Assembly: GCA_011388275.1 (NCBI GenBank)
Contig: DSAB01000092.1
Location: 1-60,070, forward strand
DNA length: 60,070 nucleotides
DNA from: a bacterium
GTDB lineage: Bacteria; Zhuqueibacterota; QNDG01; DSAB01
Direction: 5' to 3'
Positions 4,163-20,892 of the stretch are shown in pieces. Made by a program: the position numbers and the translations under genes. The notes under the pieces are model-generated. The model was not told the DNA's origin. It saw only the letters and a list, made by a program, of their open reading frames with translations, and searched no databases. The number at the start of each line of letters is the position of its first letter. Positions within the stretch are counted from its first letter, which is position 1.

Positions 4163-6985
4163 ATGAAAAATCATGATTATTTGGTCATCCGCGGAGCCAG
4201 GGAGCACAACCTGAAAAACATCAACCTGGATATTCCGCGAAATCAGCTGGTGGTCATTACAGGTCTTTCAGGTTCCGGAAAATCCTCTCTGGCCTTTGAC
4301 ACAATCTACGCCGAAGGTCAGAGGCGTTATGTGGAGTCTTTGTCGGCTTATGCCCGCCAGTTTCTGGGACTCATGGAAAAGCCCGATGTGGATGTCATCG
4401 AGGGCCTTTCACCGGCCATTTCCATTGAACAGCGTACGGCCGGAAAGAATCCCCGTTCCACTGTGGGAACCGTAACGGAAATCTACGATCACCTGCGCCT
4501 TTTATACGCCCGTATCGGCATCCCGTACTGCTATCAATGTGGACGGCGTATCGAAAAACAGACCGTGGAGCAGATGGTGGACTCGATCCTTCAGATGGAG
4601 GAGGGTTCAAGAATCATGATTCTCGCGCCTCTGATACGCGGGCGAAAAGGAGAATACCGGGATGTTTTTGAGCAGATCCGCAGGGACGGATATCTGAGAA
4701 TCCGGGTGGACGGCAAGCTGATGGATGTGGATCAACCCGTCAGGCTGGACAAACAGAAGAAGCACACCATCGAAGTGGTGGTCGACCGGTTGATTGTCAA
4801 TTCCACCATCGTCTCCCGATTGACCGATTCCCTGGAAACAGCCATGAATCTTTCGGGCGGCGTCGTTCTGGTCCACATCATCGACAGGGAAGAGCGCCTC
4901 TATTCCGCTAATTTTGCCTGTGTTCACTGCAATATCAGCTACGAAGAACCTTCACCCCGAATGTTTTCATTCAATTCACCCTACGGGGCGTGTCCGACCT
5001 GCAACGGGCTGGGAACCATCATGAAGATCGATCCGGACCTGGTCGTTCCCGATAAAACCAAAAGCATCAACGAAGGCGCTGTTATCCCCTGGGGTGAGTT
5101 ACGCGAAGGCTGGTACTTCAGCCGCCTTCAAACCCTTGCCAAAACTTGTGGATTCGATCTGGATACCCCTTTTCAGGATATGGAACCTGAACATCAGAAG
5201 CTGATTCTGGAAGGTTCAGGCGGCCGGGAATTTCGATTCAACTATCAGTCGGCAGACAGAAAAGCCAGCGGAGTGTTTATCAACGCTTTTGAAGGCATCG
5301 TGCAAAACCTGGAAAGACGCTACCATCAAACCCATTCCCAATATATACGGAACTGGATCGAAGGATTCATGAACGTCCTGACCTGCCCGGACTGCAAGGG
5401 AAGCCGGCTGAAAAAGGAAAGCCTGGCCGTGCGGGTTCATGAAAAAAACATTTACGATATCACCCGTCTTTCTATCAGGGATGTGTCCGCTTTCTTTCAA
5501 AAGTTGACTCTCAACAAACGCGAACAAACCATCGCCCATCAAATTCTGAAAGAGATCAATGCGCGCCTGCGTTTTCTCAGTGACGTGGGGCTCGACTACC
5601 TGAGTCTGGACCGGGCCACGGGCACTCTTTCGGGCGGCGAGGCACAGCGAATTCGTCTGGCCACCCAGATCGGTTCGCGTCTTGTCGGAGTTCTTTACAT
5701 TCTCGACGAACCCTCGATCGGCCTGCATCAGAGAGACAATCGGCGTCTAATCGACACGCTGTACGCCCTGCGCGATCTGGGAAATACGGTTCTGGTTGTA
5801 GAACACGACCGGGCCACAATCCAGGCGGCCGACTGGGTCATCGATCTGGGACCCGGAGCCGGAGATCACGGCGGTCAGGTAGTCGCCAGCGGCGCGCCTG
5901 ACAGAATCGCTTCGCATCCATCTTCCATCACCGGACATTATCTGGCAGGCAAACAGCAAATTCCGGTACCGGAAAACCGGCGCTCATTCGAAAAAAAACT
6001 CATACTCCTGGGAGCCAGAGGCAATAATCTCAAGTCCATCGATGTGCGTATTCCACTGGGAATCTTTGTGTGTGTCACAGGCGTATCAGGATCCGGAAAA
6101 TCCACCCTGATCAACGAAACCCTTTTCCCCCTTCTCCAGCGTCATTTCCACCGAAGCAAGGCCGTTCCTCTCCCCTGCGACGGGCTGGAGGGCATCGAAC
6201 ACATCGACAAGGTGATCGATATCGATCAGTCTCCGATCGGCAGAACGCCCCGGTCGAATCCGGCCACGTATACCGGCGTGTTCACCCACATACGGAATCT
6301 TTTTTCCCGGCTTCCGGATTCAAAGATAAGAGGTTACAAGCCGGGCCGGTTCAGTTTCAACGTAAAAGGCGGACGCTGTGAGGCGTGTGAAGGCGATGGG
6401 ATCATTAAAATCGAAATGCATTTTCTTCCCGATGTTTACGTGCCCTGCGAAATCTGCAAGGGAAAGCGCTACAACCGGGAAACCCTGGAGGTGAAATATC
6501 GGGGCTACTCCATCGCGGACATACTGGACATGACCGTTGAAGAAGCCTTTCGATTCTTTGATCGCATCCCCGCCATCCGGCGAAAACTCCAGACCCTGAC
6601 CGATGTGGGCCTGAGCTATATTCATCTCGGACAGCCCGCCACGACGCTTTCGGGCGGTGAGGCCCAGCGGGTCAAACTGTCCACCGAGCTGTCACGAATG
6701 TCCACAGGGAAGACTTTTTACATACTCGATGAACCCACAACCGGCCTTCATTTTGAAGACATCAAGATGCTTCTGACCGTTCTCAACAGCCTGGTCAACA
6801 AAGGAAACACTGTGGTGGTCATCGAACACAACCTGGATGTCATCAAAACCGCCGACTGGATCATCGATCTGGGGCCCGAAGGCGGAGATGGCGGCGGCCG
6901 CCTGGTGGCCGAAGGCCCGCCGGAATCGGTGATGAAAGAGGCGGCATCCTATACGGGACGCTTTCTGGAATCGGAACTGAATTAA
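4163..6985 (+). CDS. uvrA: Excinuclease ABC subunit A
   Basis: DNA-damage recognition ATPase of nucleotide excision repair, 940 aa, the normal length. It carries two ABC modules. The first has Walker A GLSGSGKS at about residues 34-41 and signature [12 protein letters not shown]. The second has Walker [10 protein letters not shown] and signature [12 protein letters not shown]. Zinc-binding cysteines are visible in CVHC/CPTC of the first module and in CEAC/CEIC of the second. UvrA dimers load UvrB at bulky lesions; uvrB and uvrC are not in this window. The ATG at 4163 is preceded by AAGGTG at an 11-nt spacing. The gene stands alone between a divergent TPR gene and a membrane-protein gene with its own promoter. 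Confidence 0.98.
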
Positions 6986-7114: not shown

Positions 7115-8641
7115 ATGTCATGGTTTGAATTTCTGGTACGCGCGCCTGTTTCTGAATGGATCCGATTCGGACTCTTCCTCACTGGCATTCTTCTCTTTAT
7201 CGGCATCGCCGAGAAAACCCGTCTTGTTCTGAAATGGTCACCGGAAATCAATCGAAAACTGGTTCACATCCTTACAGGCGTATTGATCTTTTTCTCTCCC
7301 TGTTTTTTTGAATCCAACCGTCCCCTTGTCTGGATGGCGGTTTTATTTATAATTCTGGATTTTTGGGCCGTCAAGACCCGGCGCCTGCCGGGCATGCACG
7401 GCACGCGACATCGAAGCTACGGAACGGTTTTCTATCCCCTGTCCTTCCTGATTCTGGTCGTTCTATGCTGGCCGGATTACCAGTCCGTTCTGGTTGTGTC
7501 CATGGCTGTCATGGCCTTTTGTGACGCCGCAGCGGCTGTCATCGGAGAAAACATTCACAATCCGCATGAATACCGGCTCTGCCGCGACACCAAATCACTG
7601 GAAGGATCGGCCGTCATGGGTCTTTCAACCCTGATCGTTGTATCCCTGCTTCTGCCTGCAGCGGGAAAAATGGATCAGCTGAGTATCGGTTTGGGGACCG
7701 CCGTCCGGATCGCCGCAGTTACTGCGGTCATGGCAACCGTGCTGGAAGCCCTTTCCTCCCGCGGTTCCGATAATCTGAGTGTGCCCCTGGGCAGCGCCTT
7801 CGTCATTCACTTTTTCCTGACACAGAGTCCGGAGGCCCAAATGCAGTTTGCCGCGGGGATGGTCCTGGCCGGTTTGGTGGCATTCCTCTCGTACCGGGCC
7901 CGCTTTCTTTCGGCCTCCGGAAGCGCCGGAACGTTCATTCTGGCCACACTGATATTCGGTGTCGGAGGATGGACATGGAGTGTTCCCATCCTGACCTTCT
8001 TTCTTCTTTCCAGCCTGCTTTCCGAAGCAGGGAAAACCCACAAAAAACAGTTCGGCCTGATATTTGAAAAGTCCGGCCGGCGGGACATCGGACAGGTGCT
8101 GTCAAATGGAGGAATGGCCGGAATTTTACTTCTGGCATACAGTTTTCGGCCGTCGGCATTCTGGTACGCGCTGTATCTCGGCGCGTTGGCCGCAGCCAAC
8201 GCCGATACCTGGGCGACAGAGATCGGGGTTTTTTCACGTATCGATCCACGGTCGATCGTCGGCTTTCACACGGTTCCCGCCGGAACGTCAGGAGGAATTA
8301 CACTCCTGGGAACTCTGTCCGCTCTGGCGGGATCCCTGGTCATCGCTCTGAGCGGATGGCTGGCCGCGCCGGCGGCATTTGGTTATCATCCGGGCAGACG
8401 AATTTTCTGGGCGGTCACAGCCGCCGGGTTTCTGGCCAGTCTGGTAGACAGCATTCTGGGGGCGACGCTGCAGTCGCAGTATCGCTGCGCGGTATGCGGC
8501 AAGATCACGGAAAAGCGTTTTCATTGTCAGCAAAACCCGACACAGCGTGTCACCGGCCTGCCCTGGCTGGACAACGACCGGGTCAACGCGATCTGCTCGA
8601 TAAGCGGATCTGTATTTGTATGGATATTGACACGATTTTAA
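7115..8641 (+). CDS. Fusion of dolichol/phytol kinase-like and DUF92 (VTE6-like) membrane domains
   Basis: 508-aa polytopic membrane protein made of two families normally found separately. The N-terminal half (about 1-230) looks like a CTP-dependent polyprenol/phytol kinase (SEC59/VTE5 type), with RKLVHILTG at 47-55, FCDAAAAVIGE and TKSLEGS. The C-terminal half (about 250-508) is a DUF92/TMEM19 domain with ANADTWATEIG at about 359-369, GTSGG at about 389, VDSILGATLQ and a CAVC...C pair. In plants VTE5 phosphorylates phytol and the DUF92 protein VTE6 phosphorylates phytyl phosphate, so the fusion could convert an isoprenoid alcohol to its diphosphate. That function is an inference; the substrate is unknown. 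The gene has its own promoter and an AAAGG site 7 nt before the ATG. ugd follows 58 nt later. Confidence 0.8.
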   Translation: MSWFEFLVRAPVSEWIRFGLFLTGILLFIGIAEKTRLVLKWSPEINRKLVHILTGVLIFFSPCFFESNRPLVWMAVLFIILDFWAVKTRRLPGMHGTRHRSYGTVFYPLSFLILVVLCWPDYQSVLVVSMAVMAFCDAAAAVIGENIHNPHEYRLCRDTKSLEGSAVMGLSTLIVVSLLLPAAGKMDQLSIGLGTAVRIAAVTAVMATVLEALSSRGSDNLSVPLGSAFVIHFFLTQSPEAQMQFAAGMVLAGLVAFLSYRARFLSASGSAGTFILATLIFGVGGWTWSVPILTFFLLSSLLSEAGKTHKKQFGLIFEKSGRRDIGQVLSNGGMAGILLLAYSFRPSAFWYALYLGALAAANADTWATEIGVFSRIDPRSIVGFHTVPAGTSGGITLLGTLSALAGSLVIALSGWLAAPAAFGYHPGRRIFWAVTAAGFLASLVDSILGATLQSQYRCAVCGKITEKRFHCQQNPTQRVTGLPWLDNDRVNAICSISGSVFVWILTRF

Positions 8642-8699: not shown

Positions 8700-10010
8700 A
8701 TGAAACTGGCTGTAATCGGAAGCGGATACGTCGGACTGGTAGCCGGAGCCTGCTTTGCCGAATCAGGCAACCAGGTGATCTGCATGGACAATGATCAAAA
8801 CAAGATCGACTCACTGAAAAATGGAATCATTCCCATCTATGAACCCGGCCTGGACACTCTCGTCAAACGCAATGTAGAAAGCGGCAAATTGACTTTTTCA
8901 ACGGACATGGAGTCTACAGTCAAGAATTCGGATATCCTTTTTATCGCGGTGGGCACGCCCCCTGATGAGGACGGATCAGCCGATTTGAGGCATGTCATTG
9001 CGGTCGCCAAATCCATCGGGAAATATATGGACCGTCCGAAAATTGTGGTGGATAAAAGCACAGTTCCTGTGGGAACCGCACAGAAAGTCAAAGAGGCTGT
9101 TCAGTCTGAAACCGCCATTCAGGTGGATGTGGTCTCCAACCCGGAGTTTCTGAAAGAAGGCGCCGCCATCGATGATTTCATGTATCCGGACCGAGTAATC
9201 ATCGGTACGAGCAATCCCGAAGTGGCCCAAACCATGCGAGACCTATATGAACCCTTTCTTCGAACGGGAAATCCAATTGTCATCATGGACGAAGTCAGCG
9301 CGGAACTGACCAAATACGCGGCCAATTCCATGCTGGCCACAAAAATCTCCTTCATGAACGAAATCGCCAACATGTGCGACCGGGTCGGCGCGGATGTGGA
9401 AATGGTTCGCAAGGGCATTGGATCCGATTCCCGAATCGGTTATTCCTTCATCTTCCCGGGCGTGGGATACGGCGGTTCCTGTTTCCCCAAGGATGTCAAG
9501 GCTCTGATTCGAAGTGCTGATTCATACGACTTTGACATGCGAATCCTTAAGGCTGTCGAGGCGGTCAATGAAGATCAGAAAAAGATTCTGATTCCAAAAA
9601 TTATCAATTATTTTTCATCAAATCTGAAGGGAAAAACATTGACCATATGGGGTCTGAGCTTCAAACCGAAGACCGACGACATGCGTGAAGCCCCTTCCCG
9701 GGTCATCATCGATGAACTCCATGGGCTGGGTGCCCGGCTCAAAGGTCACGACCCCGAAGCCATGGATGAGGCCCGCCGCCTGAAACTGGATGAAAAAATA
9801 ACCCTGTTCGATGACAATTATGAAGCGCTGAAAGACTCGGACGGCCTGATTCTGGTTACGGAATGGCTCGAATACCGCGAACCGGACTTTGACAGGATGA
9901 AAGCCTATATGAATACACCCGTTATTTTTGACGGCCGGAATATCTATAGGCCCAGAAAAATCCGCGAGATGGGTTTTACCTATTTCAGTATCGGCCGGCC
10001 GTTTTCGTAA
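8700..10010 (+). CDS. ugd: UDP-glucose 6-dehydrogenase
   Basis: 436-aa NAD-dependent enzyme oxidising UDP-glucose to UDP-glucuronate, a precursor for surface polysaccharides. The N-terminal Rossmann motif [10 protein letters not shown] lies at residues 8-17. The catalytic cysteine is in [10 protein letters not shown] (Cys at about 260). The C-terminal UDP-binding domain includes [14 protein letters not shown]. Length and order of the three domains (NAD-binding, central helix, UDP-binding) match the family. A close relative such as GDP-mannose dehydrogenase is less likely given these motifs. The start has a strong GAAAGGAG site 5-6 nt upstream. No glycosyltransferases sit next to it here; it is followed by eno after 42 nt. 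Confidence 0.95.
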
Positions 10011-10040: not shown

Positions 10041-11345
<1,305 letters not shown>

Positions 11346-16272: not shown

Positions 16273-16547
16273 AGAATACTCCTCCCTGTTGATGAGAAAA
16301 AATCGTCCTCTCATAACCCAAGTGTTGTTTTCTGGAGGGAAATAGTGGCTTATTATTCCCAATTTGGAAAATTTATGAGACGTTGTCAAGTTGTATTTGC
16401 AGACTTGAAAAAAATCATGTTTCACAAAAAAAAATGAAAAAATACTGAACCTGTGGAAAAATTTTTGTATATTAAGGATCATTGAACGAGAAGGCTTCGG
16501 TTCTCGGAGCCGACAACCAAAATCGATTCCATGGAGAAACGCCTGCC

Positions 16548-17489
16548 TTGAAAACGAACCCATCGGAAAACCTTACACCGGTGGACGCAGAAACATCCGC
16601 TCCTCCGTCACGGACCCTGGCTCCGCGCCGCTGGTGGCTGGCCGGTTTTCTGACGGTTATCCTGCCGGGGCTCGGCCAGATGTACAACGGACAGCCCGTC
16701 CGGGGACTGCTTTTCTTCGGTCACTTTATATGGCTTCAGGGAATTCTGCTGCACGCGATTTTGCGGCCCGAAAGCGGCTTTTCCCGCATCCATTTCATTT
16801 TATCGGCAATCATAATCGCCATCCTGTTCGTTTTGTTCATCGTTATTCTGGCCGATGCCATCCGCCGGGCCCGCCGTCATCCGCGCATTCAGGCGACGCC
16901 TTTTCATCGCTGGCCGGTTTTTTCAGCCATGATTCTGCTGAGCCTGTCATTTCATTTTCTGGCACAGCGGCGGATTAATGAAATGGCATTGAAAACATAC
17001 CGTATTTCTTCGTTCAGCATGCTGCCCACGCTGCGGCCGGGCGACCATGTAATCAGCAGCCGGTTTGTTTTTCTCGGCCAGAATCCACAAAGAGGGGAAG
17101 TGGTGCTCTTTAAAAACCCGGGCAACCATAGACAGACCTTCGTGAAACGAATCATCGGCCTTCCGCGGGAAACCCTTGAGATCCAGGGTCAACAGGTACT
17201 GATCAACGGAGAAATTTTATTCGAACCCTATCTTCCGGACAGGCAGGCCTCCGATACGCTTGCTTTTACCTATCCGTCTGTCAGACTGAAAGACGGTCAG
17301 TATTTTGTCATGGGAGACAACCGGAAAAACAGCCTGGACAGCCGGTTATTCGGTCCTGTTGACCGGTCTTTGATCAGAGGCAAACCACTGGTCATTTTCT
17401 GGTCATGGGATGGAACCATTCCCCGAAGCAACTGGTTAAAGCGTTGGTTTTCTCTTCGTATATCCCGTATCGGACGACAAATTCAATGA
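16548..17489 (+). CDS. Signal peptidase I with an extra N-terminal membrane domain
   Basis: About 313 aa. The C-terminal two thirds is type I signal peptidase. The catalytic Ser is in SSFSMLPTL, the general-base Lys is in FVKRIIGLPRE, and MGDNRKNSLDSRLFG forms the C-terminal box. Before this sits an added membrane domain with LPGLGQMYNGQPVRGLLFF and two further hydrophobic segments, a motif known from small polytopic domains fused to signal peptidases. The TTG at 16548 is preferred (GGAG 11 nt upstream). A TTG at 16482 would add 22 residues, but its AGGA lies only 3 nt away. A -10-like TATATT at 16468-16473 supports the downstream start. A second signal peptidase gene follows after 41 nt. Confidence 0.85.
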   Translation: MKTNPSENLTPVDAETSAPPSRTLAPRRWWLAGFLTVILPGLGQMYNGQPVRGLLFFGHFIWLQGILLHAILRPESGFSRIHFILSAIIIAILFVLFIVILADAIRRARRHPRIQATPFHRWPVFSAMILLSLSFHFLAQRRINEMALKTYRISSFSMLPTLRPGDHVISSRFVFLGQNPQRGEVVLFKNPGNHRQTFVKRIIGLPRETLEIQGQQVLINGEILFEPYLPDRQASDTLAFTYPSVRLKDGQYFVMGDNRKNSLDSRLFGPVDRSLIRGKPLVIFWSWDGTIPRSNWLKRWFSLRISRIGRQIQ

Positions 17490-17530
17490 GACAAAAAGCC
17501 GAATAATTCTTCTACAAGAAAGGTTTGATA

Positions 17531-18496
17531 ATGACCAATCAAACATCCTCACAGTCCTCGAGCGCCTCACAGAAGAGGAAAAATTTCTATAAAGAATGGA
17601 TTGAACCGATTCTCTGGGCGATTCTCATCGCTCTGGGTATTCGCATCACCATCATCGAGCCATTTCGTATCCCTACCGGATCGATGGAGAACAATCTCCT
17701 GGTCGGCGATCATATCATGGCCAACAAGTTCGTCTACGGAATCCGCACTCCTGACTGGATAGGCATTCCATACACGGAAATCGGTTTCAAGGCGCCCTTT
17801 TTACGCACTCCCGGTTTTCGAAAACCCGTTCCCGGAGATGTGGTTATTTTTAAATTTCCAGAAGAGACGCGGCTCCATTATGTCAAACGCTGTGTGGCCC
17901 TGAGCGGAGACACGGTGTTCATCCGCAATAAAAAACTTTTCGTCAATGGTGAACGCTTTCCTGATCCCCCCCACGCCAAATACATCGATCCCATGATCTA
18001 TCCGGAAAACATGAAAGACCGGAACACGGTTCCTCCTCACGCGGGAAACCGCGATAATTACGGCCCGGTTCGTATCCCGGCCCCGGGGGACACGCTGGTG
18101 TTTCATGAAACCAACCGGAACAGATGGATGGAATGGCTTCGAATCATTCTATATGAGGGCGGAACCGTCTCGATCAACCGTTCCGGTGAAACAACCCGAA
18201 TCCATCCGCCGGACCTGAAACGTCTGGCTTCAGCCATTCAGGCCGCGCCGGCTGGTGATATTCATGTGAACGGCCTGCCATTGACAGACCTGGTTTATAC
18301 CATCCGTTACACGCAGTATTTTATGATGGGTGACAACCGGGACAACAGTGAAGACAGCCGTTTTTGGGGATTCGTTCCCGAAAGGCATATCGTGGGAGAG
18401 GCCATGGTGATCTGGTGGTCCTGGGATTCGCGAATGCCGATGTACCGGTTTCTCAGAAAGATTCGGTTCGGCCGTCTCTTCAACCTGATTCATTGA
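17531..18496 (+). CDS. lepB: Signal peptidase I (LepB family)
   Basis: 321-aa membrane serine peptidase that removes signal peptides on the periplasmic side. It has one N-terminal membrane segment (PILWAILIALGIRITII, about 29-45). The catalytic Ser is in RIPTGSMENNLL and the catalytic Lys in HYVKRCVALSGDT. MGDNRDNSEDSRFWG forms the C-terminal box. A substrate-side insertion of about 120 aa lies between the Lys region and the final box. The ATG at 17531 is chosen over a TTG at 17525 because GAAAGG lies 8 nt upstream. With the preceding gene it forms a tandem signal peptidase pair upstream of several exported hydrolases. Confidence 0.94.
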   Translation: MTNQTSSQSSSASQKRKNFYKEWIEPILWAILIALGIRITIIEPFRIPTGSMENNLLVGDHIMANKFVYGIRTPDWIGIPYTEIGFKAPFLRTPGFRKPVPGDVVIFKFPEETRLHYVKRCVALSGDTVFIRNKKLFVNGERFPDPPHAKYIDPMIYPENMKDRNTVPPHAGNRDNYGPVRIPAPGDTLVFHETNRNRWMEWLRIILYEGGTVSINRSGETTRIHPPDLKRLASAIQAAPAGDIHVNGLPLTDLVYTIRYTQYFMMGDNRDNSEDSRFWGFVPERHIVGEAMVIWWSWDSRMPMYRFLRKIRFGRLFNLIH

Positions 18497-18531
18497 TTCT
18501 TATCTTACCTATAAACATGGAGTCCTGCATC

Positions 18532-19695
18532 ATGAAACGCAACCTCATTATCGGTCTTTTCGCATTGACTTTTCTGGCGCGGCCGCTGTTTTGCCAGGAG
18601 GAAACAACCGATAGGCCTGTCTATCAGTTCACTATCGAAAAAGAATTGAAGCACACACCCGTCAGGGATCAGGCCCGGTCATCCACTTGCTGGTGTTTTG
18701 CCGCCCTTTCTCTGATGGAAGCCGAGCTTCTTCGCGCGGGCAGGGGGGAGTTTGATCTTTCGGAGATGTTTGTGGTCCGTCATACCTATCCCATGAAAGC
18801 CGAAAACTACATCCGCATGCACGGAAACGCCAATTTCGGCGGAGGCGGATACTATCACGATGTCCTCGAGGTCATGAAGACCCATGGCCTGGTTCCGGAG
18901 TCCGTCTATACAGGGATGAATATCGAAGAATCCCGGCATAATCACGGTGAACTACACTCCGTGATTCGCGGCATGCTGGACGGAATCCTGAAACGGCGCG
19001 GCTCCCGGTTGACTCCGCGGTGGCAGGAAGCCGTCTCCGCAGTTCTGGATGTGTATATGGGCGCTCCGCCGATTTCTTTCGAGTTTGAAAAAACACGCTA
19101 CACACCGAAAAGCTTTTTAAAGGATCGTCTTCAGCTTGATCCCGATGATTATATTGAGATCACATCCTATTCGCATCATCCTTTTTATCAAACCTGCCGC
19201 CTGGCACTGCCCGATAATTGGATGTGTTATGATCAATTTTACAATGTACCCCTGGAAGACTTCTCAAACATCATCGAAACCAGTCTTCAGAAAGGATATA
19301 CCGTTGTCTGGGGCGGAGATGTCAGCAACGATGATTTTTCCACCCGTCAGACCGGATACGGAATCGTTCCACTGAAGGACCGGGAGGAGATGACCGCCGA
19401 AGAACGCAAGGCGAAAATCACGGAACCGGTGATAGAGAAAAAAATCACTCAGGCCATCAGACAGAAAGCATACGACAGTTTCTCGACGACAGACGATCAC
19501 GCCATGCATCTGGTGGGTCTGGCCACTGACCAGCTGGGAAACCGGTTTTATCTGACCAAGAATTCTCACAGCACGGACCGGAAATTCGACGGCTATGTGT
19601 ATCTGTCCCGGCCCTATGTGCTTCTGCACGGGATAGCCATTATGGTTAACAAGGCCGCCCTGCCGAAAACAATAAAAAAACAACTGGGGCTTTAA
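18532..19695 (+). CDS. Secreted C1-family cysteine peptidase, bleomycin hydrolase-like (copy 1)
   Basis: 387-aa papain-like peptidase with a signal peptide (about residues 1-21). The oxyanion Gln47 and catalytic Cys53 are in RDQARSSTCWCFA. The His is in TDDHAMHLVGLA and the Asn in YLTKNSHS. Overall layout matches aminopeptidase C/bleomycin hydrolase (cytosolic in most organisms), but this copy is exported. The GGAGTCC site 9 nt before the ATG at 18532 supports the start. A paralogue follows 36 nt later. The Asn context (KNSHS rather than KNSWG) is unusual. The expected role is trimming peptides outside the cytoplasm. Confidence 0.9.
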   Translation: MKRNLIIGLFALTFLARPLFCQEETTDRPVYQFTIEKELKHTPVRDQARSSTCWCFAALSLMEAELLRAGRGEFDLSEMFVVRHTYPMKAENYIRMHGNANFGGGGYYHDVLEVMKTHGLVPESVYTGMNIEESRHNHGELHSVIRGMLDGILKRRGSRLTPRWQEAVSAVLDVYMGAPPISFEFEKTRYTPKSFLKDRLQLDPDDYIEITSYSHHPFYQTCRLALPDNWMCYDQFYNVPLEDFSNIIETSLQKGYTVVWGGDVSNDDFSTRQTGYGIVPLKDREEMTAEERKAKITEPVIEKKITQAIRQKAYDSFSTTDDHAMHLVGLATDQLGNRFYLTKNSHSTDRKFDGYVYLSRPYVLLHGIAIMVNKAALPKTIKKQLGL

Positions 19696-19731
19696 ACCGG
19701 AGTTGCGAATGATTCTGAACGGAGGTCAAAT

Positions 19732-20892
19732 TTGTTTAGAATAAACAAGATACGTACGGCTCGTGTACTTTTCCTGATTACAGTCATGGGATTATCGGCA
19801 TGGGCCCGGGAAGAAAACGCCTACCGGTTTACGATCGATTTTCAGCTGGACCATACACCGGTTAAAAATCAGGCCCGGACCGGAACCTGTTGGTGCTTTG
19901 CCACGGTGTCTTTTCTTGAATCGGAAATTTTAAGAACGTCGGGCATCAGGACGGATCTGTCAGAGATGTTTATCGTGCGCATGACCTATCCCCATAAAGC
20001 CGAGAATTATGTGCGTTTGCACGGGCAGGCCAACTTCGGTCAGGGCGGACAGAGCCACGACGTGTTCGATCAGATACGCCGATACGGCATTGTGCCCGAA
20101 TCCGTGTATTCCGGTCAGCGTATCGGTGAAAGACTGCACAATCACGGGGAGATGTTCGGCATCCTTGAGTCCATGCTCACGAGCATCACCAAACGCCGCG
20201 GGCCCCTGACGCCCCGATGGATGGAGGCCTTTGAAGCCGTTTTGAACGTGTATCTGGGAAAACCTCCTGAAACATTCGATTTCGAAGGTCAATCGTTTAC
20301 GCCACGGTCCTTCGCCGCGCATTTGGGAATACAACCCGATGACTATGTGGAGCTCACCTCATTCAGCCATGTTCCATTCTACGAAAAGGTTCGCCTGGAA
20401 GTCCCGGATAACTGGAGCTTCGACAGCGGATATCTGAACGTGCCCATCGACGATCTTGAAGTCGCGGCGGATCACGCCCTGAAATCGGGCTACACGGTGG
20501 CGTGGGACGGCGATGTCAGTGAACGTGACTTCTCGACCCGGGAGACCGGTTACGCGGTGGTGCCGCTGAAAGAACCCGAAGCGATGAGCCGGGAGGAGCG
20601 CGACCAAAAGATCACGGAACCGGTCGAAGAGAAAACCGTCACTCAGGAAATGCGCCAGGAAACCTTCGACAATCAAACAACCACCGACGATCACCTGATG
20701 CACATCGTCGGCATCGCCCACGACCAGAAGGGCACCAAATACTATTACATCAAGAACTCCGGCGGCACCGAGCGGAAAAATGAAGGATATGTATACATGT
20801 CGCAGGCCTATTTCCGGCTGAAAACCATCGCACTCACCGTGCATCGCGATGCCCTTCCGGAACACATCAGGAAACGCGTCATGAGCAATTAA
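19732..20892 (+). CDS. Secreted C1-family cysteine peptidase, bleomycin hydrolase-like (copy 2)
   Basis: 386-aa paralogue of the preceding gene, collinear along its whole length. It has an N-terminal signal peptide (ending near ARE, about residue 26). Gln47 and Cys53 are in KNQARTGTCWCFA, at the same positions as in copy 1. The His is in TDDHLMHIVGIA and the Asn in YIKNSGG. It starts with TTG, supported by CGGAGGTC 6 nt upstream. Shared segments such as LSEMF, TYPHKAENY, HNHGE and LTPRW show recent duplication followed by divergence. It is probably co-transcribed with copy 1 and the hydrolases downstream. Substrate unknown. Confidence 0.9.
   Translation: MFRINKIRTARVLFLITVMGLSAWAREENAYRFTIDFQLDHTPVKNQARTGTCWCFATVSFLESEILRTSGIRTDLSEMFIVRMTYPHKAENYVRLHGQANFGQGGQSHDVFDQIRRYGIVPESVYSGQRIGERLHNHGEMFGILESMLTSITKRRGPLTPRWMEAFEAVLNVYLGKPPETFDFEGQSFTPRSFAAHLGIQPDDYVELTSFSHVPFYEKVRLEVPDNWSFDSGYLNVPIDDLEVAADHALKSGYTVAWDGDVSERDFSTRETGYAVVPLKEPEAMSREERDQKITEPVEEKTVTQEMRQETFDNQTTTDDHLMHIVGIAHDQKGTKYYYIKNSGGTERKNEGYVYMSQAYFRLKTIALTVHRDALPEHIRKRVMSN

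Follow-up and report, generated by a model that had tools for sequence, protein, structure and literature searches.

The 60,070-nucleotide stretch of DNA analyzed here (the window) carries on its plus strand, at positions 7115 to 8641, an open reading frame of 508 amino acids with an ATG start, in which an N-terminal prenol kinase-like domain is fused to a C-terminal DUF92 domain. We consider it probable, at roughly two chances in three, that the protein is a bifunctional integral-membrane CTP-dependent kinase that converts a prenol to the prenyl monophosphate and then to the diphosphate, the likeliest conversion in this organism being that of geranylgeraniol to GGPP. The choice of a C20 substrate, taken alone, we place somewhat short of even odds. 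In the proposed mechanism, the N-terminal domain, of the dolichol/phytol kinase type, would use CTP and a divalent metal to make the monophosphate of an isoprenoid alcohol, the DUF92 domain would add the second phosphate, and the joining of the two domains would keep the monophosphate local. In this bacterium, geranylgeraniol would most likely pass through GGP to GGPP, which would go back to the prenyltransferases of the cell, above all the archaeal-type GGGP and DGGGP synthases. We infer catalytic activity, the order of the steps, and the use of CTP; the characterized VTE5, FOLK, and VTE6 enzymes prefer CTP and require divalent cations (PMC9782597).

A preliminary description of this DNA had claimed that both domain types occur in one membrane protein of this length, and the claim was borne out by the DUF92 match of one half and by the motifs and CdsA-like fold of the other. 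Domain boundaries could be drawn by HMM for the C-terminal half, where residues 251 to 498 (positions 7865 to 8608, plus strand) matched PF01940 with an E value of 5.9e-69 and 232.6 bits (cut-off, 27.5) over model positions 2 to 250/251, but not for residues 1 to 243 (positions 7115 to 7843, plus strand), which on their own had no Pfam match and no meaningful NCBIfam match. The C-terminal domain is of the VTE6/COG1836 type and presumably a prenyl-phosphate kinase, an assignment for which we also drew on a search of the organism's own genome; COG1836 was tied to phytol-phosphate metabolism in a 2011 proposal (PMC3223725). The score against TIGR00297, the NCBIfam DUF92 equivalog, was 127.5 bits, below the cut-off of 205.85, and by these scores the protein lies inside PF01940 and outside the equivalog. 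Among the aligned DUF92 halves, the signature NADTWATE (residues 362 to 369, positions 8198 to 8221, plus strand) is invariant from N362 to E369, including the first putative catalytic aspartate, D364. The second conserved aspartate, D445, is likewise invariant and opens the motif DSxLGATxQ (residues 445 to 453, positions 8447 to 8473, plus strand). The structural model of this half (pLDDT, 92.7) had CdsA as its best, albeit weak, PDB hit (probability, 0.44); CarS ranked ninth. On the basis of the models, both halves look like members of the CTP-using membrane superfamily, to which DUF92 was assigned by HHpred in a published passage (PMC5898192).

For the N-terminal half, the evidence came from alignments of 35 homologous domains and of a larger set of 61, together with the structural model. 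PF01148 (CTP_transf_1) was the family most commonly matched, although weakly and by 6 of the 35 domains (best E value, 0.003), and all other families were matched by no more than 2 each. Fourteen columns were invariant in the 35 domains (R47, K48, H51, G103-T104, D137, A140, G144, G164, M168, E211, G217, D219, and N220), and the 61-domain set concurred except for M168. Four motifs stand out on the plus strand. The first, RKLVH (positions 7253 to 7267), with R47, K48, and H51, forms an invariant charged clamp that presumably orients the CTP phosphates and is kept in the 60 of 61 N-terminal domains that have these columns. The second, D137xxAAxxG144 (positions 7523 to 7546), is a putative metal- or nucleotide-binding helix. 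The third, KSLEG (residues 160 to 164, positions 7592 to 7606), is an instance of a K[ST]xEG motif in which serine or threonine occupies position 161 in all rows with that column. The fourth is the acidic/GxDN motif E211...G217xD219N220 (positions 7745 to 7774). PfPolK, an assayed Plasmodium prenol kinase, has a proposed CTP clamp with the same Arg-Lys-x-x-His spacing (Arg29, Lys30, and His33) and a hinge made of Thr144 and Glu179 (PMC10849223). From R47 to S161 of KSLEG there are 114 residues, compared with 115 from the clamp to Thr144 in PfPolK; beyond the clamp, a correspondence between S161 and Thr144, and one involving E211, is suggested by this kind of spacing.

The AlphaFold model of the N-terminal half (mean pLDDT, 92.8) is built mainly of transmembrane helices, to which a small beta hairpin is added. 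When it was compared with the PDB, ranks 1 to 4 were all chains of CdsA, a CTP-dependent cytidylyltransferase (probability, 0.97 to 0.99; E value, 0.025 to 0.087; TM-score, 0.36 to 0.38), and the equivalent archaeal domain has been linked by HHpred to COG0170/Sec59 at 99.85%, as given in a passage of reference PMC5898192. Because the invariant motifs, the confident CdsA-like model, and this published result point in the same direction, an assignment to the dolichol/phytol kinase type with a CdsA-like fold is supported. Neither Pfam nor NCBIfam nor the PDB structure search gave a non-kinase membrane family a better score, and the conserved kinase residues were present on alignment, two points on which the preliminary description could have failed. 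Sequence searches of the PDB with the whole protein or with either domain alignment found no relative, and matches of HIV gp120 entries to the string RKxxHIG were dismissed as chance. An internal duplication was also rejected, the profile-profile comparison of the two halves being not significant (probability, 6), though D137 was aligned with D364.

These alignments also bear on whether both halves are active. The N-terminal half could, for example, bind or present prenols while DUF92 carries out both steps, or DUF92 could be a structural partner, and such a division would suit the many genomes in which DUF92 is found with no N-type kinase, as well as the suggestion, noted in a review, that VTE6 perhaps phosphorylates phytol directly (PMC5694494). 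Position 82 might be added, where the window protein has aspartate and 56 of the 61 N-terminal domains have asparagine. However, aspartate is present there in 4 of the 61, which is why we do not read D82 as a loss, and the residues presumed to be catalytic do not vary between phyla in either half, which would be unexpected if a half were degenerate. We regard a noncatalytic half as very unlikely.

The fusion of these domains is in itself prior art. Two-domain archaeal proteins of arCOG02245, such as Mbar_A3310 of Methanosarcina barkeri, were predicted to act as isoprenoid kinases by Makarova and Koonin in 2015, in a single paragraph without biochemistry whose text does not mention a spread in bacteria or adjacent gene pairs (PMC5898192). 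The window protein shares with them one chain and an identical order, with a Sec59/dolichol kinase-like N-terminal half followed by DUF92, where Sec59-like refers to motifs and fold and not to a match with a curated family. It is thus a well-conserved bacterial member of a known arrangement, and what is new here is the distribution in bacteria, the translationally coupled pairs, the repeated fusion or splitting, and the pathway context, which speaks against menaquinone and for ether lipids as the sink. The plant and cyanobacterial phytol and farnesol kinases VTE5 and FOLK, judged by motifs and fold, resemble the N-terminal half in type, as polytopic membrane CTP-dependent prenol kinases of the dolichol kinase superfamily, but they are separate single-domain enzymes acting on phytol or farnesol. 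No annotated VTE5 turned up among plasmid records. VTE6 (COG1836), the phytyl-phosphate kinase, belongs to the same Pfam family as the C-terminal half, PF01940; it stands alone in plants and cyanobacteria, whereas the DUF92 domain of the window is fused behind a first kinase in a genome that points to ether lipids and not to chlorophyll. PfPolK, for which farnesol and geranylgeraniol kinase activity has been shown, shares the RKxxH clamp and a comparable K[ST]xEG spacing with the N-terminal half but is eukaryotic and single-domain, with the second kinase unfused (PMC10849223). CdsA (CDP-DAG synthase; PDB 4q2e and 4q2g) is the nearest solved fold of both halves, with low TM-scores (0.33 to 0.38), and differs in that it transfers CMP instead of phosphate.

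In a survey of the frequency of the fusion, a check that the preliminary description had called for, the complete one-frame fusion was present in 55 of the 82 genomes of the window's phylum. In about 6 more, by our own count, the gene looked interrupted by a frameshift or by the end of a contig. Given this recurrence and the invariant columns (14 in the N-terminal half and dozens in the C-terminal half), the fused reading frame is neither a product of chance nor an assembly artifact. Outside the phylum, fusions were found in Calditrichota, Heliobacteriaceae, Tepidanaerobacter/Thermosediminibacter, Symbiobacteriaceae, Chloroflexota (including Chloroheliaceae), two Archangiaceae, and one planctomycete. 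At seven loci, the two domains were encoded by neighboring genes, on opposite strands in one case. Three of these pairs (L010:6613-6621, L018:2081-2089, and L020:6625-6633) lie in the same frame, with one stop and one further codon before the ATG of the second gene, and the first gene has a GGAGG-like sequence within its end or close to it; a similar same-frame pair has four codons from stop to ATG (L016:3754-3771). Such in-frame stop-ATG pairs appear to represent a stage between coupled and fused genes.

A quick tree built from the DUF92 halves placed the window's phylum together with Calditrichota in one fused clade (support, 87), and on it the fused label required six changes, of which at least four were forced by starred branches. 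This indicates that fusion or splitting took place more than once, the counts being approximate. The fused kinase of “Candidatus Chloroheliaceae” (Chloroflexota; L025) grouped with those of heliobacteria (L011, L014, L015, and L017; SH-aLRT, 83), which suggests a transfer between two phototroph lineages.

Several lineages have the two domains either in one chain or encoded side by side almost in frame, which indicates that they work together. Both domains are intact, and the single-chain salvage of a prenol to its diphosphate advanced in the preliminary description is the most economical reading. This reading does not extend to obligatory coupling, as DUF92 occurs alone elsewhere. Among 35 genomes with a stand-alone DUF92, an N-type relative was close in 3, more distant in 15 (E values of 1e-21 to 1e-30), and marginal in 3, while in the other 14, including most of the Paenibacillus genomes tested and Tumebacillus, no N-type kinase was detectable; these 35 are mostly metagenome assemblies of unstated completeness, so that some of the absences may be gaps. 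By these searches, the two kinase steps are not obligatorily coupled everywhere, and where DUF92 lacks an N-type kinase in the genome, it would have other substrates or partners.

The neighborhood of the fused gene was set aside as a clue to the pathway, with only housekeeping genes nearby. Upstream lies uvrA (positions 4163 to 6985), conserved as a neighbor in L002, L005, L006, L007, and L083, and downstream are a UDP-glucose/GDP-mannose dehydrogenase gene, ugd (8700 to 10010), and the enolase gene eno (10050 to 11345), both identified by Pfam and synteny; all three are on the plus strand and serve as context. The order of uvrA, ugd, eno, and ftsB around the fused kinase was maintained in relatives, and no isoprenoid gene stood among these neighbors. 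Farther along the window, at positions 16482 to 20892, two tandem signal peptidase (S26) open reading frames come before a tandem pair of open reading frames for papain-like C1 peptidases.

A different neighborhood was observed in three Calditrichota (L009:3629-4510, L030:4967, and L032:2162), in which a DUF368 (PF04018) gene resembling those of undecaprenyl-phosphate translocases precedes the fused kinase. That position would suit an enzyme recycling long-chain polyprenols (undecaprenol or dolichol-like) into the carrier-lipid pool of cell wall or glycan assembly, and so would the N-terminal domain, which falls on the dolichol kinase side of the superfamily, and the presence of uppS next to archaeal COG1836 genes, as described in a passage of reference PMC5898192. 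We rank this possibility lower and hold it to be unlikely because it is the monophosphate form of a carrier lipid that is used, whereas DUF92 should supply a second phosphate, and the diphosphate would have to be dephosphorylated again. Moreover, the window's genome has a second, stand-alone N-type prenol kinase-like gene that suits the role better (L125:5749-6486, minus strand; G000:C45; 224 bits to the fused-family profile). Its neighbors are genes for a PF03706 flippase-like protein and an aminotransferase-like protein, and it possibly encodes a dolichol kinase-type enzyme for glycan carriers.

In order to place the proposed bifunctional kinase in a pathway, we considered the isoprenoid sinks of the genome, which is 96.5% complete. 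A quinone side chain, one of the substrates contemplated in the preliminary description, proved unlikely here: no match to MenD or to MqnA/D was found, and with these markers no known menaquinone route. The supply of menaquinone or another prenylquinone would parallel the plant VTE5/VTE6 route, whose products go into tocopherol and phylloquinone (PMC9782597), and menD or mqn genes do occur in many of the other genomes of the phylum that carry the fusion. However, by our own count neither marker was present in 36 of the 55 fused genomes, 22 of which are at least 90% complete, and one family of the phylum (f12) has menD throughout, yet carries a stand-alone DUF92, or gives no match, in place of the fusion. 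For this organism, we consider a role in quinone supply highly improbable.

The same genome encodes a GGGP synthase, a DGGGP synthase-like UbiA, and a geranylgeranyl reductase (L122:6734-7489, minus strand; L123:6811-7641, minus strand; L124:5138-6364, plus strand). The GGGP synthase scored above the TIGR01769 equivalog cut-off; the UbiA protein had DGGGP synthase models as its best matches, below their cut-offs; and the reductase scored above TIGR02032, with the archaeal digeranylgeranylglycerophospholipid reductase model as its best match, below the cut-off of that model. Together, these genes are candidates for an archaeal-type ether-lipid pathway, in a bacterium that apparently has no menaquinone. 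CarS was not detected in this genome and was found in 1 of 82 in the phylum, and a CarS-based archaeal phospholipid pathway was discarded for the phylum. The gene set present here is the one proposed to make archaeal-type ether lipids in bacteria of the FCB group, likewise without CarS, and FCB bacteria lacking CarS have working GGGP and DGGGP synthases (PMC7852524). A kinase taking geranylgeraniol to GGPP would suit such a set, and activities phosphorylating geranylgeraniol and GGP were described from Sulfolobus in work of 1996 (cited in PMC9385802). Because the MenD and MqnA/D markers are missing while the GGGP synthase, the UbiA protein, and the archaeal-type reductase are present, recycling of geranylgeraniol for archaeal-type ether lipids seems likelier here than a use in quinones.

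The link between the kinase and ether lipids is circumstantial. Co-occurrence in the phylum, a check put forward in the preliminary description, did reveal a near-universal GGGP synthase (72 of 82 genomes, including all 49 near-complete ones), but this does not discriminate, since the synthase is found whether or not the kinase is present; G026, G027, and G032, all near complete, have it and gave no match to the fused kinase. Outside the phylum, PcrB was present in only 7 to 8 of 27 genomes with fused or adjacent domains. Therefore, we rejected co-occurrence with GGGP synthase as proof. The product is probably put to different uses in different lineages. The fullest picture, that a phylum with archaeal-type ether-lipid genes has one two-headed kinase taking geranylgeraniol directly to GGPP, which would be the first enzyme to salvage a prenol to its diphosphate in one polypeptide, with repeated fusion from translationally coupled pairs, is tentative and in our judgment rather doubtful as a whole.

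According to a 2022 review, prenol salvage needs two independent enzymes, for which few genes are known beyond plants and cyanobacteria, and E. coli is reported to be without these activities (PMC9782597). The fusion described here offers strong genomic support for DUF92 acting directly after a VTE5-type step in bacteria, and the conserved one-chain kinase is a compact, testable candidate enzyme for turning cheap prenols into GGPP or FPP. If the link to ether lipids is true, the mixed-membrane pathways proposed for bacteria of the FCB group (PMC7852524) would gain a branch for salvage.
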